From: Zygnema cylindricum
Lineage: Eukaryota > Streptophyta > Zygnematophyceae > Zygnematales > Zygnemataceae
Direction of reading: 5' to 3'
Length of the DNA stretch: 64,000 nucleotides
NCBI GenBank assembly: GCA_037447655.1
Contig: JBBHKE010001760.1
Location: forward strand, 1 to 64,000
In this document: piece after piece, positions 19,581 to 51,000 of the stretch
Numbering within the stretch: the stretch's first letter is position 1
Layout: each line of letters begins with the position of its first letter
Program-made: the position numbers and the translations under genes
Notes under the pieces: generated by a model
The model's input: only the letters and a program-made list of their open reading frames with translations
Told to the model about the DNA's origin: nothing
Database searches by the model: none

Positions 19581-21035
19581 CTACCTACGATTCTTTTTTA
19601 AGTTATGACTTTTTTGGCTCTCATGAACTATCTTCCTTAGCCTTATTTTCTGAACACTCTTCCTCGGTTTTTCCTGGATTTCAATAATTTTTAAACCCAC
19701 AGTGTTTTCCACTTCCGATGTTAATTCCCTTTTTTGTGTCAATTCACACTTTCCTATCTGATCATTTACTTCTTCTCTTTCTCTAAGTTCTGTTTGTATT
19801 TTAGTGTTATCTTTTTCTAAGAAATATTCTTCAATCAATTTTAAGTTTACTTTTTTAACTCCCCTTACTTCATGAATCTCTTCTCCCTCTATGCTATTCT
19901 CATACACCAGTTTATCACAATAAGAAGTCACACAACCCGAGTCTTTTTCACACTCGTCTGTTTCCTTACTGTTTTCGGTGATAATAATTTTTCCAGTTTC
20001 TTCCGCTTCCATGTGCCTTTCACTTCTATCGACTTCTCGTATTCTAGTTGCCCCTTCCTTTAGTAAGTTTATGTAACCCACCAATCTGTCATAAGACATA
20101 TTGAAAGTAATCGGATCCTTTTCTGTCACCTCTTTCTCCTCATTCCGAACAACACAAAAGATCGGTAAATAAATAAATTCGTCAACACATGGTGCATGCC
20201 TTTTGTCATCTGTCGAGTCTTGTCCTTCACTCACAAAAGCACTTGATTCCTTTTTTGTTGGGGTACGAACTAGGTTGTTGTCCCATCCATCTCTGAAATT
20301 TCCTGTAACACATGCACTTTTATACGATGGACATACCCTGAAAGTATGTCCTAAATCAATACAGTAAAAACAATTCTTTGGTCGATCTCCGAACTCACTA
20401 TTACTTTTAAATTTCTGAAACTGAGACTTAGATTCCTTTATATTCCTTTCACTTGATAAGACCCTTCTATTATCCTCTTCATCTAAAATAACTCATCTAG
20501 CTACAATTACGCTCCAATCATTTTTATCAATTAAAATCAATCGATCTAGTGCACTCTTATATTCTTTAGGTAGACTTCTCATTAACAAGATAGCTTGTTG
20601 AGCATCTGTAAAGTTGCCTCCTGCCAAATCATTTTCTGCAAATAATACTTGTAAGTAAATACAGTGTTTCTCCATACTACCTCCTACATACTTGTGTTCA
20701 ACTATATTGGTAACACTACTAAGCCAATGATATAAAGAAGTCTTTGCATACATACTTTCTAAGCACTTCCATAATTCAGCTGCCTTTTTAACACTTATGT
20801 ATGACATTACTAAATCCGGAGTCAATGAGTTCTTAATAACCATTAGACACTCATGATTTTTTCTTTTCCATCCATTTGACGTTTCGACCAAGGTACCGTC
20901 CACCACGTCCATTAGTTCCATCATCTCGAAGTAGCTCTCAAGCGCACACTTCCAGTAGTGATATTTTGATCCATCAAATATAGGTAGCCATGGGTGTGGG
21001 CACATAACCTGTTGTCCATAGCCTTTTTCAGCCAT
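19581..21035 (-). CDS. gag polyprotein of element C with one in-frame TGA
   Basis: A single frame runs from the ATG at 21035 to 19581 (about 484 codons), interrupted only by TGA at 20490-20492. The first part (21035-20493) is a copia gag domain: LPIFDGSKYHYWK, then AELWKCLESMYAK and LMRSLPKEYKSAL, typical of DUF4219/UBN2. After the TGA the frame continues through a canonical CCHC knuckle (CFYCIDLGHTFRVC, near 20340-20390) to an acidic tail (20234-19581). The first nine codons lie inside the 5' LTR, before the PBS. Whether the TGA is a mutation or a programmed stop cannot be told from one copy. Confidence 0.75.
20994..21009 (-). promoter_or_regulatory. Primer-binding site of element C
   Basis: On the minus strand GGTTATGTGCCCACAC directly follows the LTR end CAACA. 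It differs slightly from the half-tRNA-Met site of elements A1 and A2 (GGTTATGGGCCCACC), pointing to the same priming mode. Confidence 0.65.
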
Positions 21036-22028
21036 GGATTACTCACGGAAACACCCACAAACTACCTCAAAAACAGTTGTGTTTCAGACAACACAGATTA
21101 CTCCACAATAAACAAAATGATCTCAAACTGCACCAATATGCAGTATACCATATACACTCTAAACTCCCAAAGTTACAGCCAAATCCACCAAGGCATCTAG
21201 AAGATATAAGCTTCAGAGTTTCCCAAATGTAGTTGACAGCTTCACAAACTAACCACTTAGACTGTTCACAGAATCTTACAGAGATACTGGAACACAATGA
21301 AACTTCACACACATATATATTCTATATCATAGAATAACTCCACAAAGTTTCATATGAAAGCACTAATCAGAGTGATCACACCAACAGGTCAAATATGCAG
21401 AAAACAGTCTGCCATTGCTTTGATTAACTTGACTGCGATACATAAAATAATCTAAGTCCTGCAAGTTATACTCAGAGTACGGAGGCATACCAGCCGTACT
21501 ATATCTACTCTAATAAACTATTTAGTCAAAAGGACAAACCTCTGTTGTACATAATTTTTACACCGTACTCTTCGTATGTCAGAAACCAAGCTACCACTAA
21601 GCAACTACTACGCTACCACTACCGTACAATCATCATTACTCGAGATCTATCCTAGTCATATTATCCGCAGCTGCGCTAGCTGCGCTGGCTGCGCTGGTTG
21701 CGCTGGCTGCGCTGGTTGCGCTGGCTGCGCTTGTCCGTACGGATCATACAAATAGCCGCAGCTACGTTGACTTAACTGCGTCGCAGCTCCGCAGTACTGG
21801 CGGCGCCTATTCCAACATTCTGTTTATTTTACATCGGATCGCTTCGCGATCCGCCGTCCATTTGTCACAGCTTGTTCACACCACTCAATGAGTATTTTAC
21901 GTCACTTTAATTATATCAATCCGTTCGCTCCCCCAATTCGTGAATCTATTCAAACCTCCATATTAAATCCAATTAGCAGTTACGGGCAAACTGTCTCGTA
22001 CGCACGAAACTGACTTTTCAAAACAACA
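21010..22028 (-). repeat. 5' LTR of element C
   Basis: 1019 bp, TGTTG...CAACA. It contains the gag start codon near its end (21033-21035), a GCTGCGCTGG array (21668-21728), and short AAGCTACCACTA-like repeats near 21590-21620. Confidence 0.88.
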
Positions 22029-25437: not shown

Positions 25438-26012
25438 TGTTGTTCTATAACCACCGTTGCAGGTGGAGGAGCAACAGTAGTAGTAGAAATAGACATGATA
25501 CACTCTCAAAAGCTATCAAGAATCATACCAAACAACTGTTCTTAAGTGCTCACCAATTCTTATAAAAGAATCCAAACCTCACAAGACTCTATCAGAATAT
25601 AGAGTAGCATAAACACTGATAACTCCCAAAGTTTCAGCTCAATTGACCCTACAACACTCAAGATATAATACTCAGAAGTTTCCTAAAAACTGTCTGCAGT
25701 TTTACTACTTGGAAGTCTGGATACATAATATGTTCTAAGTCCTAAGTCTTATACTTGTGTTGAACTGGCAACACCAGTGTACTTGAGAGGTACATCAAAC
25801 CACCAAGCTACCACTAATCTGTCAAGCTACCACTGAGCTATCACTAAGCTACCACTGAGTTACCCACTAAGCTACCACTAAGTTACCCACTAAGTTGACT
25901 AGAATCGTATCTATCGCAGTTGCTCTATCCTGTACAGAATCACATTAAGAATATCAGACGATACCTTTTCCGTACGGACCATATCAAATATAATCATGGT
26001 TGCGTTGTCTTG

Positions 26013-26241
26013 TGTTGGATTGGCACGTGAATGCCGGTTCAATACGGGGTAGAATGTGAAATGTCACACTCGAATCCGCCTAAAAGAAATAGGTACGGAC
26101 CCGCCAGGCTCTACATCGAGCTGGTGGCACAGTGGTTAGTGCGCTGACAGCTCAAGTCAGAGGTCCCAGGTTCGAGCCCTGGCCGGCTCACTTTTCCCTA
26201 GTATGGGACATACCGAATCCCGGATTTCACGGAAATCAACA
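26013..26241 (+). repeat. 5' LTR of the miniature element
   Basis: 229 bp, TGTTGGATTGGC...AAATCAACA. It contains the tRNA-like unit 26118-26190 and a T4 run at 26192-26195. It is identical by eye to 26299-26527. Confidence 0.95.
26118..26190 (+). ncRNA. tRNA-like Pol III unit in the 5' LTR
   Basis: All arms of a cloverleaf fold. Acceptor: GAGCTGG/CCGGCTC (7 bp, one G-U). D stem: GCAC/GTGC. Anticodon stem: CTGAC/GTCAG with loop AGCTCAA. Variable loop: AGGTC. T stem: CCAGG/CCTGG with loop TTCGAGC. A box: TGGCACAGTGG (26125-26135). B box: GGTTCGAGCCC (26169-26179). TTTT starts two bases after the end (26192-26195), as in a Pol III gene. Position 33 is G, not U, so a CUC anticodon would be poorly presented. 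I regard it as tRNA-derived promoter or RNA sequence, not a decoding tRNA. Confidence 0.85.
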
Positions 26242-26254
26242 TGGTATCGGAGCC
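26242..26254 (+). promoter_or_regulatory. Primer-binding site of the miniature element (tRNA-Met 3' end)
   Basis: TGGTATCGGAGCC follows the CA end of the 5' LTR with no gap. This is the standard plant Ty1/copia and TRIM primer type with one wobble-compatible change. It differs from the half-tRNA type used by elements A1, A2 and C. Confidence 0.85.
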
Positions 26255-26298
26255 AGCGGGATTGCGGATGGTGTGACCGGCCTTCCCGTGAGGGGGGG

Positions 26299-26527
26299 TG
26301 TTGGATTGGCACGTGAATGCCGGTTCAATACGGGGTAGAATGTGAAATGTCACACTCGAATCCGCCTAAAAGAAATAGGTACGGACCCGCCAGGCTCTAC
26401 ATCGAGCTGGTGGCACAGTGGTTAGTGCGCTGACAGCTCAAGTCAGAGGTCCCAGGTTCGAGCCCTGGCCGGCTCACTTTTCCCTAGTATGGGACATACC
26501 GAATCCCGGATTTCACGGAAATCAACA
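26299..26527 (+). repeat. 3' LTR of the miniature element
   Basis: Identical by eye to the 5' copy. It follows the polypurine tract directly and is followed by the duplicated target TCTTG. Confidence 0.95.
26404..26476 (+). ncRNA. tRNA-like Pol III unit in the 3' LTR
   Basis: Exact second copy, 286 bp downstream of the first, with the same A box, B box and TTTT terminator (26478-26481). Two intact units so close together are the result of LTR duplication. Confidence 0.85.
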
Positions 26528-26641
26528 TCTTGGTTGTGTTGCAGCTTCGCTGTTGCGCTGCTCTGCCGCAGCGCTGCTGCGCTGCTCTGCTGTTTAGCAG
26601 CTGCGCTGCTCTGAGACTGAAAGCTTTCCAAAAAGACAACA

Positions 26642-48048: not shown

Positions 48049-51000
48049 ATGTTGACTCTAAAAGGTTATCCCGAAGGTGTGAAGTTTGAGCCGACTGATG
48101 AACAGCTTGTGAAGCATTTGGCGGCAAAATCGGGAATGGCTGGTTATGTGCCTCATAAGGACTTAGGGATGTTTATTCCTACAATCGATGATGAAGGTGG
48201 CATGAGTAGAATGCATCCTGAACATCTGCCAGGTGAGCGAGTTAGAGAGATAAGAGGGTATCGATATGTACTCTACAACCGAATTTACTACTTGTGCAAT
48301 ATCATAATAATTATACAGAATGCTGTGCGATTTTTAAGAAACGTTCACTTTTATAGGATTACGCTGATTTACTGAAGTAATAGCGTACGTGGAACTGCTA
48401 TAGGAGATGATAGGCAGCTGAAGGCCTTAGGAACTGGTAATTTTGGCTCCATTTGCATGGTATATTCTAGCTGCAAAAGGCATTCAAGTTAAGCCATAGA
48501 TTGACATAAGAAAGATGCATCTAACATATGCTGTTGTGTTTGATGTCCATACTGGTGTTGTTCTTCTAACAGGGCAAGCTTTTGGAATTAGAGAATGATA
48601 TTGCTTTTCTCCTGGAGATTTAAAACTGATGATTTTGTAGATGTTGAAAATGTAATGAAACTGGCCTGTGGTGGCTTCATTTTTCTGAAGTCCTTCTCCA
48701 TCATGATTCAGGAATGTTAACCAGATTTTATCCCCATTCCTCCCCCCCCTCCTCCCCCCTCTCCTCTTTCCCCCCCCCTCTCCCCCCCCTCCCTCCTCCC
48801 CTTCCCCGTTTCTAGCCTCCATTCGGTATCTCCCTCTGTGGCCAGTGACCCTTGCAGGGTTCCAGGGATGGTGTAAGACGCCATTTTTTCCATCACCCGA
48901 TTGGTCCAGTCTTAGCTGGGACACGCAAGAAAAATAAAATACAGAAATTAGAGGATGGGGAAATTCAACAAATGCGGTGGCATAAGACGGGAAAGACGCG
49001 ACCTGTGAAGGTCAATAATAAACAGGTGGGTTAATGTGCTTATGATTGACAAATTGGGTAATTGCATGTTTTGGATTAGTTCATCAGACAATGTTCAGGT
49101 GTGTGATTTCTTGCTTTAATTGTTATGTCTCAGCTTTTTGGTTGTCGCCTTTTGAGCTTTTTGTGCCCTTCCATTCTTGTGTGCAGTTGGGTTGCAAAAA
49201 GATTCTTGTACTGTACAACAGCAAGGGCAGGAAAGAAGGAGAAAAGAGTAAAGAAAAAGATGAGAAAACCAATTGGGTGATGCATCAGTATCACTTGGGT
49301 GAGGAGCATATGGAAAAAAATAACAAATGGCTTGTTTCGAAGGTTTTCTGGCAAACTGAACGCCGTAAATCAACCAGCAGAAAACCTGCAACTAGCAGTG
49401 AGTTTGAGCAAACTGTTGTAGAAGACCAATCTCCGAGTGCTGCAGTGAAGAAAGGCGATGAATCTTCGGTAACATTTTCGGTCGAGTTTGCGCAAGAAAG
49501 GGCCATTAAAGGTCATTCTGCGTCGACAAGAGTGGAATTTAAGACACATGTACAAAAGCGGCTCAAGTTGGGAGATGGAGTGGGTGACAGTGCAATAATG
49601 AATAGACAGGGTTTGAAGTCATGCGAAGAGACGCTCACAACAATGGTACGCACATTTGCCTAGCAAGTTCTGTGTTGGGCTTAGGGTCTCAGTTAACATT
49701 ACTTGCTGTAGAGTTGTTTTTTTAACGAATGCTGATGCTGATGGTTATGCTTATTTGCTGGAGTTTGCGTAGGAACACATTGTGTTTGCTTGCGTCTGGC
49801 TGGACTCAGAAAGAGTTATAGCTAAAGTTGTGTGCTTTTTATTACAGGAGGTTGACAGGCACTCGACTGGTGATAGAGTGGCCTATGCAGACGGGAAGAA
49901 TGGACCGGCTCCAACAGACGAAGATGTAATAGCCAATTCTGTTTGACTCTTTGTTATGTTCTGGGAATTCACCAAAGTCAGTCAATGTTTTGTTTGTTTC
50001 CACAGCAATAGGCCTGCCATCATCAGGATGTTATGTTTGGAAAAACGCGATAATCTGCATTCACGTGGTAGAGTTGCATGGTGTTTGGTTTACAGATCCT
50101 TAAGCATTGGGGCTTTATTGTCTGTGACAAATGGATATTGTGAAGCTCAGCCAGGCAATAGAGTTATGTAACTTTCACCTTCATTGAGCCTTTCTTTTTC
50201 ATTGACGGCAGTTGGTGGGCCTATTGTTTGGATTGCAGCCCTTCTTTGGAGGCTGGAGCAATATGCACGAAGGGAAAGACGCGACAAGTATTTCTGATGT
50301 TGGGTCATCCCAAGAGGTAAGGCTCTGTTTCATCCACTTGAGGTTCATGGCGCATTCTTCTTTAGATTTTAATTTCCTATCAAATGATTCTAAACAGTCT
50401 GTCTATTGAGATGAATGTAATTTGTTGATTTTTCTTCTGCAACTTTGTCTTAGGCTCTGGTCTCAAGTAGATTGTTAGCTTCAGCACTATTTCTCAAGGA
50501 TTTAAAGTGGAAGTGTGAAATTTGGGTGATTTCCTTTCTGTAATTTTATCTTAGGCCATCCTCCCAAGTATATCAGGTATGCCAATGAAGGTATTTAAAG
50601 TAGTTTTGTCATTCTGTTTTGTTGTGTGGTCTCCTTTGATTTATAACCTCCCTGGGTTGCTTTCTAGCAAACTCTTTTCTCTCATTTTGTCGCTGTCAAA
50701 ACAATTGCTGTAATTGCTTTACCATCCGTTTGTTTGTTTTTGTTTTTGTTTATTCTGTTTATCATCAGCCCCCAGCTTACGGTGAGTACGATGATGTGGT
50801 TAGCAAGGAGACTCAACCTCAGGCTGATCGATTTGAAAACTATGAACCAAGTGGAGGAAATATCGATGATTTTCCGTACAGACCAAACACAGACTGCAGA
50901 AATCTGATATGCCATGAAAATGGGGTAGATCTTAACTATTTGGACGATGTAGATGATGTAAGACCTCTAAAGCGATTGCCAATGAATCTTATCCAGTCTA

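Follow-up and report, generated by a model that had tools for sequence, protein, structure and literature searches.

Non-autonomous LTR retrotransposons (TRIMs) with tRNA-like LTRs have been named Helenus and were reported from fungi, animals and one plant, and the term TRIMp3 was coined in the same work, grouping Helenus with Cassandra and Ajax (Kojima 2024, PMC10886601). Helenus-1_SMo, with an LTR of 120 bp, is the only plant family named there, and in most Helenus families, box A contains TRGCY and YGG and box B contains GGTTC. The same paper interprets most of these families as incapable of encoding a functional tRNA and names a few that could. The LTR of Cassandra carries 5S rRNA sequence, and a Pol III-type unit in this TRIM LTR (PMC7215508; PMC10886601) as well as tandem LTR-interior arrays (PMC7215508) have been described. 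Arrays of the form (LTR-interior)n-LTR inside one TSD are also known from other plant TRIMs (Gao 2016, PMC4717578); in the available portion of that main text, the word tRNA does not occur, and no tRNA-bearing LTR is reported. Besides Helenus, no account naming a tRNA-bearing TRIM appeared among the open-licence papers listed in literature searches.

The element described here, from a 64,000-nt stretch of Zygnema cylindricum DNA (referred to as the window), is assigned here to a new Helenus-type family, placed by its structural marks and set beside the named families by description. As in Helenus, which is usually shorter than 1 kb, each LTR carries a tRNA-like sequence, and a PBS and a PPT lie between the LTRs (PMC10886601). 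It differs from Helenus-1_SMo in its longer LTR (229 bp vs 120 bp) and, with respect to the description of Helenus in the available text, in the full-length tRNA fold that was called here by both ARAGORN and Rfam. The initial annotation had regarded a tRNA-bearing TRIM as an independent second case beside Cassandra. In this it was preceded by Helenus, so the kind of element already has a name, while the family itself is filed here as new. The family widens the occurrence of Helenus in plant-type genomes, for which the available text of PMC10886601 names one family, and, being well populated and split into two subfamilies, it makes testable whether such a unit serves as a promoter only or as folded RNA too.

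Anatomy of the element and its tRNA-like unit

The window copy spans 515 bp (26013..26527, plus strand) and consists of two identical 229-bp LTRs (TGTTG...CAACA; 26013..26241 and 26299..26527) around a 57-bp interior (26242..26298) that is too short for a transposition protein. The element as a whole is without coding capacity and lies within the size range of TRIMs (<1000 bp). A PBS (TGGTATCGGAGCC, 26242..26254) is found behind the 5' LTR and a PPT (GAGGGGGGG, 26290..26298) ahead of the 3' LTR, and comparison of the flanks revealed an exact TSD, TCTTG, at 26008..26012 and 26528..26532. The borders, LTR identity, interior and duplication that had been proposed initially are thereby confirmed to the base. 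We take the PBS to be of the plant initiator-Met type, the common plant one; its motif occurs only once in the window when up to one mismatch is allowed. Short tandem repeats of the GCTGCGCT type adjoin the insertion (26544-26613), and a second set of repeats with 11/23-bp units lies nearby (25824-25894). Furthermore, the window contains Copia-type remnants at 1042-1962 and 20493-21038, recognized by domain matches (Pol_BBD, Retrotran_gag_2).

Each LTR harbors a tRNA-like unit on the plus strand (26118..26190 and 26404..26476), called by ARAGORN as tRNA-Glu(CTC) (26118-26191 and 26404-26477) and matched by Rfam RF00005 (54.6 bits and E 5.4e-9 in each LTR, the gathering score being 29). In the 5' LTR, the unit includes a box A-like motif (TGGCACAGTGG, 26125..26135; motif definition partly after PMC10886601) and a box B-like motif (GGTTCGAGCCC, 26169..26179). 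The Helenus motifs GGTTC and TGG are present, and TGGCA matches TRGCY at 4 of 5 letters. A Pol III terminator-like TTTT directly follows the 5' unit (26192..26195), and a second TTTT lies behind the 3' unit (26478..26481), where it may mark the 3' end of the element RNA. These are the only runs of 4 or more T in the window element; when the letters of one LTR plus interior were shuffled, 1.0% of the shuffles had such a run beginning within 0-5 nt after the unit, and 0.65% had one there and nowhere else. The initial annotation was right in placing a tRNA-like unit of Pol III type inside each LTR. At the Rfam gathering score, a scan of the whole window yielded these two tRNA matches only and no 5S rRNA match, and 5S content as in Cassandra was therefore rejected.

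Working tRNAs carry a U at position 33. Since the unit has a G at this position, as read from the letters, it is tRNA-like and not evidently a translating tRNA; the full cloverleaf that the initial annotation had seen in each LTR holds as a fold recognized by ARAGORN and Rfam, in this restricted sense. That the unit was recently captured from one of the host tRNAs sampled is unsupported, with a best identity of 71% among sequences of 28 of the 30 fetched loci, a sample that covers few isotypes and includes some sequences taken on the wrong strand. The element's own tRNA-like unit was also considered as the primer of reverse transcription and rejected, the longest PBS-complementary run being 6 nt with G-U pairs included.

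A dispersed family with solo LTRs and arrays

Searching the assembly (352.8 Mb, 2689 contigs) with a 30-nt query from the PBS-side end of the interior, allowing up to 3 mismatches, gave 277 matches as compared to 1 for the reversed control, and the 40-nt start of the LTR gave 234 matches as compared to 0. A DNA similarity search gave at least 48 matches, with 40 of 920 candidates scored. Eighty loci were studied, 79 of which were fetched in addition to the window's own; they include only part of the 277 interior matches.

Exact 5-bp TSDs, the length also given for plant and fungal Helenus (PMC10886601), flank 25 of 50 single complete elements. As the pairs L036/L037 and L041/L042 each appear to stem from a duplicated stretch, this corresponds to 24 of 48 independent elements, whereas an exact 5-bp match was found in none of 2438 comparisons between flanks of different elements. 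The exact TSD was present in 12 of 17 elements with less than 2% LTR divergence vs 13 of 33 above this value. Six single elements, including that of the window, have LTR pairs without any substitution, one of them (L062) with a one-base gap. A lone complete LTR was identified at 10 of 20 further loci, which were chosen by eye among the first-listed LTR starts without an interior among the matches listed, and 7 of these 10 solo LTRs are flanked by an exact TSD; two that are alike (L135 and L137) probably represent one duplicated insertion.

Moreover, tandem arrays of the form (LTR-interior)n-LTR occur, with n up to 4. Among the 8 arrays in which both outer LTR ends are complete, 6 are flanked by one exact 5-bp TSD by our reading of the flanks (L044, L067, L068, L076, L082 and L095); of the other two, L026 is one base off, and L028 likewise has no exact TSD. 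In this respect, the family resembles both Cassandra and the arrayed plant TRIMs of Gao 2016, and solo LTRs as well as tandem arrays are also part of the Helenus description, the latter mentioned for LTR-11_DR (PMC7215508, PMC4717578 and PMC10886601). Inverted or scrambled copies side by side were found at L061, L077, L087, L088 and L033, and an inverted TRIM pair is figured in Gao 2016 too. L079, considered as a candidate autonomous element, looks like a decayed copy instead.

The window copy is a non-autonomous LTR retrotransposon, a TRIM, probably of recent insertion, and a member of a multi-copy family. The initial annotation had named as a refuting outcome a single-copy element whose LTR pair arose when a tRNA pseudogene was duplicated in tandem on the spot. 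Such a duplication without transposition would account for the two-copy look within the window and nothing else, and it is refuted by the TSDs, by hundreds of matches spread over many contigs and by solo LTRs with TSDs of their own, as well as being at odds with the PBS, the PPT and the TG...CA ends; the probability that we still assign to it is negligible.

Two subfamilies and the anticodon arm

Most of the fetched copies belong to two main subfamilies, that of the window (A) and a second one (B), whose LTR is approximately 83-87% identical to A and ends in TAACA. The 154 complete LTRs were sorted into 69 A (at least 91% identity to the window LTR) and 69 B (80-88%, taken only from loci L056-L095), with 16 outside these counts. 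It should be noted that the ratio of A to B copies is meaningless, because A was sampled mainly from the best DNA matches and B from interior matches that were exact or had one mismatch.

Comparing the majority bases, A and B differ at 38 of 229 LTR positions. Only 7 of these lie in the 73-nt unit, 6 in the 17-nt anticodon arm and 1 in the other 56 positions, as compared to 31 of 156 positions in the LTR outside the unit (1/56 vs 31/156; Fisher p 0.0004); B has furthermore lost one D-loop base relative to A. Box A and box B are both located inside the conserved part. Within the anticodon stem (CTGAC/GTCAG in A, TTCGC/GTGAA in B), five positions have changed while all five pairs are kept, through double substitutions at pairs 27-43 and 29-41 and a change from A-T to G-T at pair 30-40. 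With five random stem substitutions, all five pairs were kept in 1763 of 200000 trials, and with the changed positions held fixed, in 16 of 243 combinations. L126, an old outlying copy, again has five pairs (TTCAC/GTGAA), together with a damaged D arm and no tRNA call by ARAGORN; a third subfamily founded on this copy found no support, as no other copy exceeded 78% identity (40 scored of 750 candidates).

The fold is also apparent in the individual copies, where cloverleaf cells are paired (A, 1376 of 1446; B, 1408 of 1443), vs 33-38% when the partner was slid. Of the 69 LTRs in each subfamily, T4 or longer is retained in 64 (A) and 65 (B), and ARAGORN called tRNA-Glu(CTC) in 55 A and tRNA-Gln(CTG) in 60 B LTRs. 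No tRNA was called in 13 A LTRs, 6 B LTRs and 14 of the 16 others, nor in 12 of 17 rows that comprise mostly divergent LTRs, several of them with internal duplications or deletions. In three LTR variants (L128, L132 and L133), parts of the tRNA-like unit (24-43 nt) are duplicated internally; L132 and L133 lie on the same contig and have one duplication in common. Because ARAGORN reports a tRNA-Glu or tRNA-Gln in 115 of the 138 A and B LTRs, and thus in the majority of examined copies, such genomes may appear to have more tRNA genes than they do, which calls for caution in annotation.

These calls could suggest that the element disseminates functional tRNA genes. However, the commonest unit of A and that of B both have G at position 33, where working tRNAs have U, and the RF00005 scores of the element (53.6-56.9 bits for the window copy and two B loci, and 41 bits for two older copies) lie below most of those of the host, which range from 45 to 74 bits for 63 scored of 24620 candidates, not singly verified as genes, with 58 of the 63 above 56.9. 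A role in spreading working tRNAs is therefore highly improbable.

The contrast between A and B hints, at the level of sequence, at selection on a folded RNA, with the tRNA shape itself kept besides the promoter sequence. The compensatory changes come from one subfamily contrast that was noticed after the fact, and the whole anticodon arm could have been brought in by recombination with another tRNA-like unit. In the available text of PMC10886601, conservation in Helenus is described around the promoter boxes; paired anticodon-stem changes beside a near-unchanged rest of the unit are possibly a new observation.

Within the subfamilies, stem variation amounts to 0.0446 in A, vs 0.0473 (LTR 1-105) and 0.0522 (LTR 179-229) in the flanks, with 0.0225 in the loops, and to 0.0277 in B, vs 0.0234 and 0.0159 for the same flanks, with 0.0164 in the loops. 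As stems thus vary approximately as much as flanks, fixed copies show no stem constraint, which would be the expectation were constraint confined to source copies. The same figures would suit an ordinary Pol II TRIM that had at some time acquired a tRNA-derived SINE or tRNA pseudogene in its LTR, now a functionless passenger, and a T4 run that would impede Pol III read-through fits this reading as well. However, we consider a passenger unlikely, as, between subfamilies, the part of the unit beyond the anticodon arm is far better kept than the LTR around it, the anticodon stem has changed yet stays paired, and T4 or longer persists in 129 of 138 A and B LTRs.

Proposed transcription and replication

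The explanation that we favor, and regard as probable, is a recently inserted TRIM of the Helenus/TRIMp3 kind that would be driven by Pol III via its tRNA-like unit, with the cloverleaf seemingly kept both as a fold and as a promoter. The T4 run and the two promoter boxes, A and B, are our grounds for inferring Pol III transcription. The unit of the 5' LTR would recruit Pol III, transcription would start approximately 10 nt upstream of this unit (26118), and the transcript would read through the first T4 (26192-26195), the PBS, the PPT and U3 to stop at the T4 behind the unit of the 3' LTR (26478-26481), giving an RNA of approximately 370 nt. The tRNA-like unit would then form the terminal repeat (R, approximately 88 nt), followed by a U5 of 46 nt (26196-26241), with the rest as U3. 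Judging from the PBS type, an initiator-Met-type tRNA may prime reverse transcription, and an autonomous partner would provide the enzymes, most likely a Copia element, given the 5-bp TSD and the PBS type.

The main difficulty is the T4 behind the 5' unit, where many transcripts should end at approximately 90 nt; since it directly follows the unit, a full-length RNA needs read-through. A more specific proposal, which we hold to be rather unlikely, is that the 3' cloverleaf itself sets the 3' end of the RNA, by a Pol III stop or by RNase Z cleavage at the tRNA 3' end. R would then equal the tRNA-like unit, which would act both as a promoter and as a folded RNA element. If true, this would be a terminal repeat defined by tRNA processing signals, which replace the Pol II start and poly(A) sites.

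Elsewhere in the window, two stretches on the plus strand (48070-49300) match Pfam NAM at profile positions 1-59 and 94-122, each with 24.1 bits and thus below the cut-off of 27; these neighbouring matches point to a plant-type host. They are probably exons of a NAC-type gene, whose product, presumably and by eye, recalls SOG1-like proteins.
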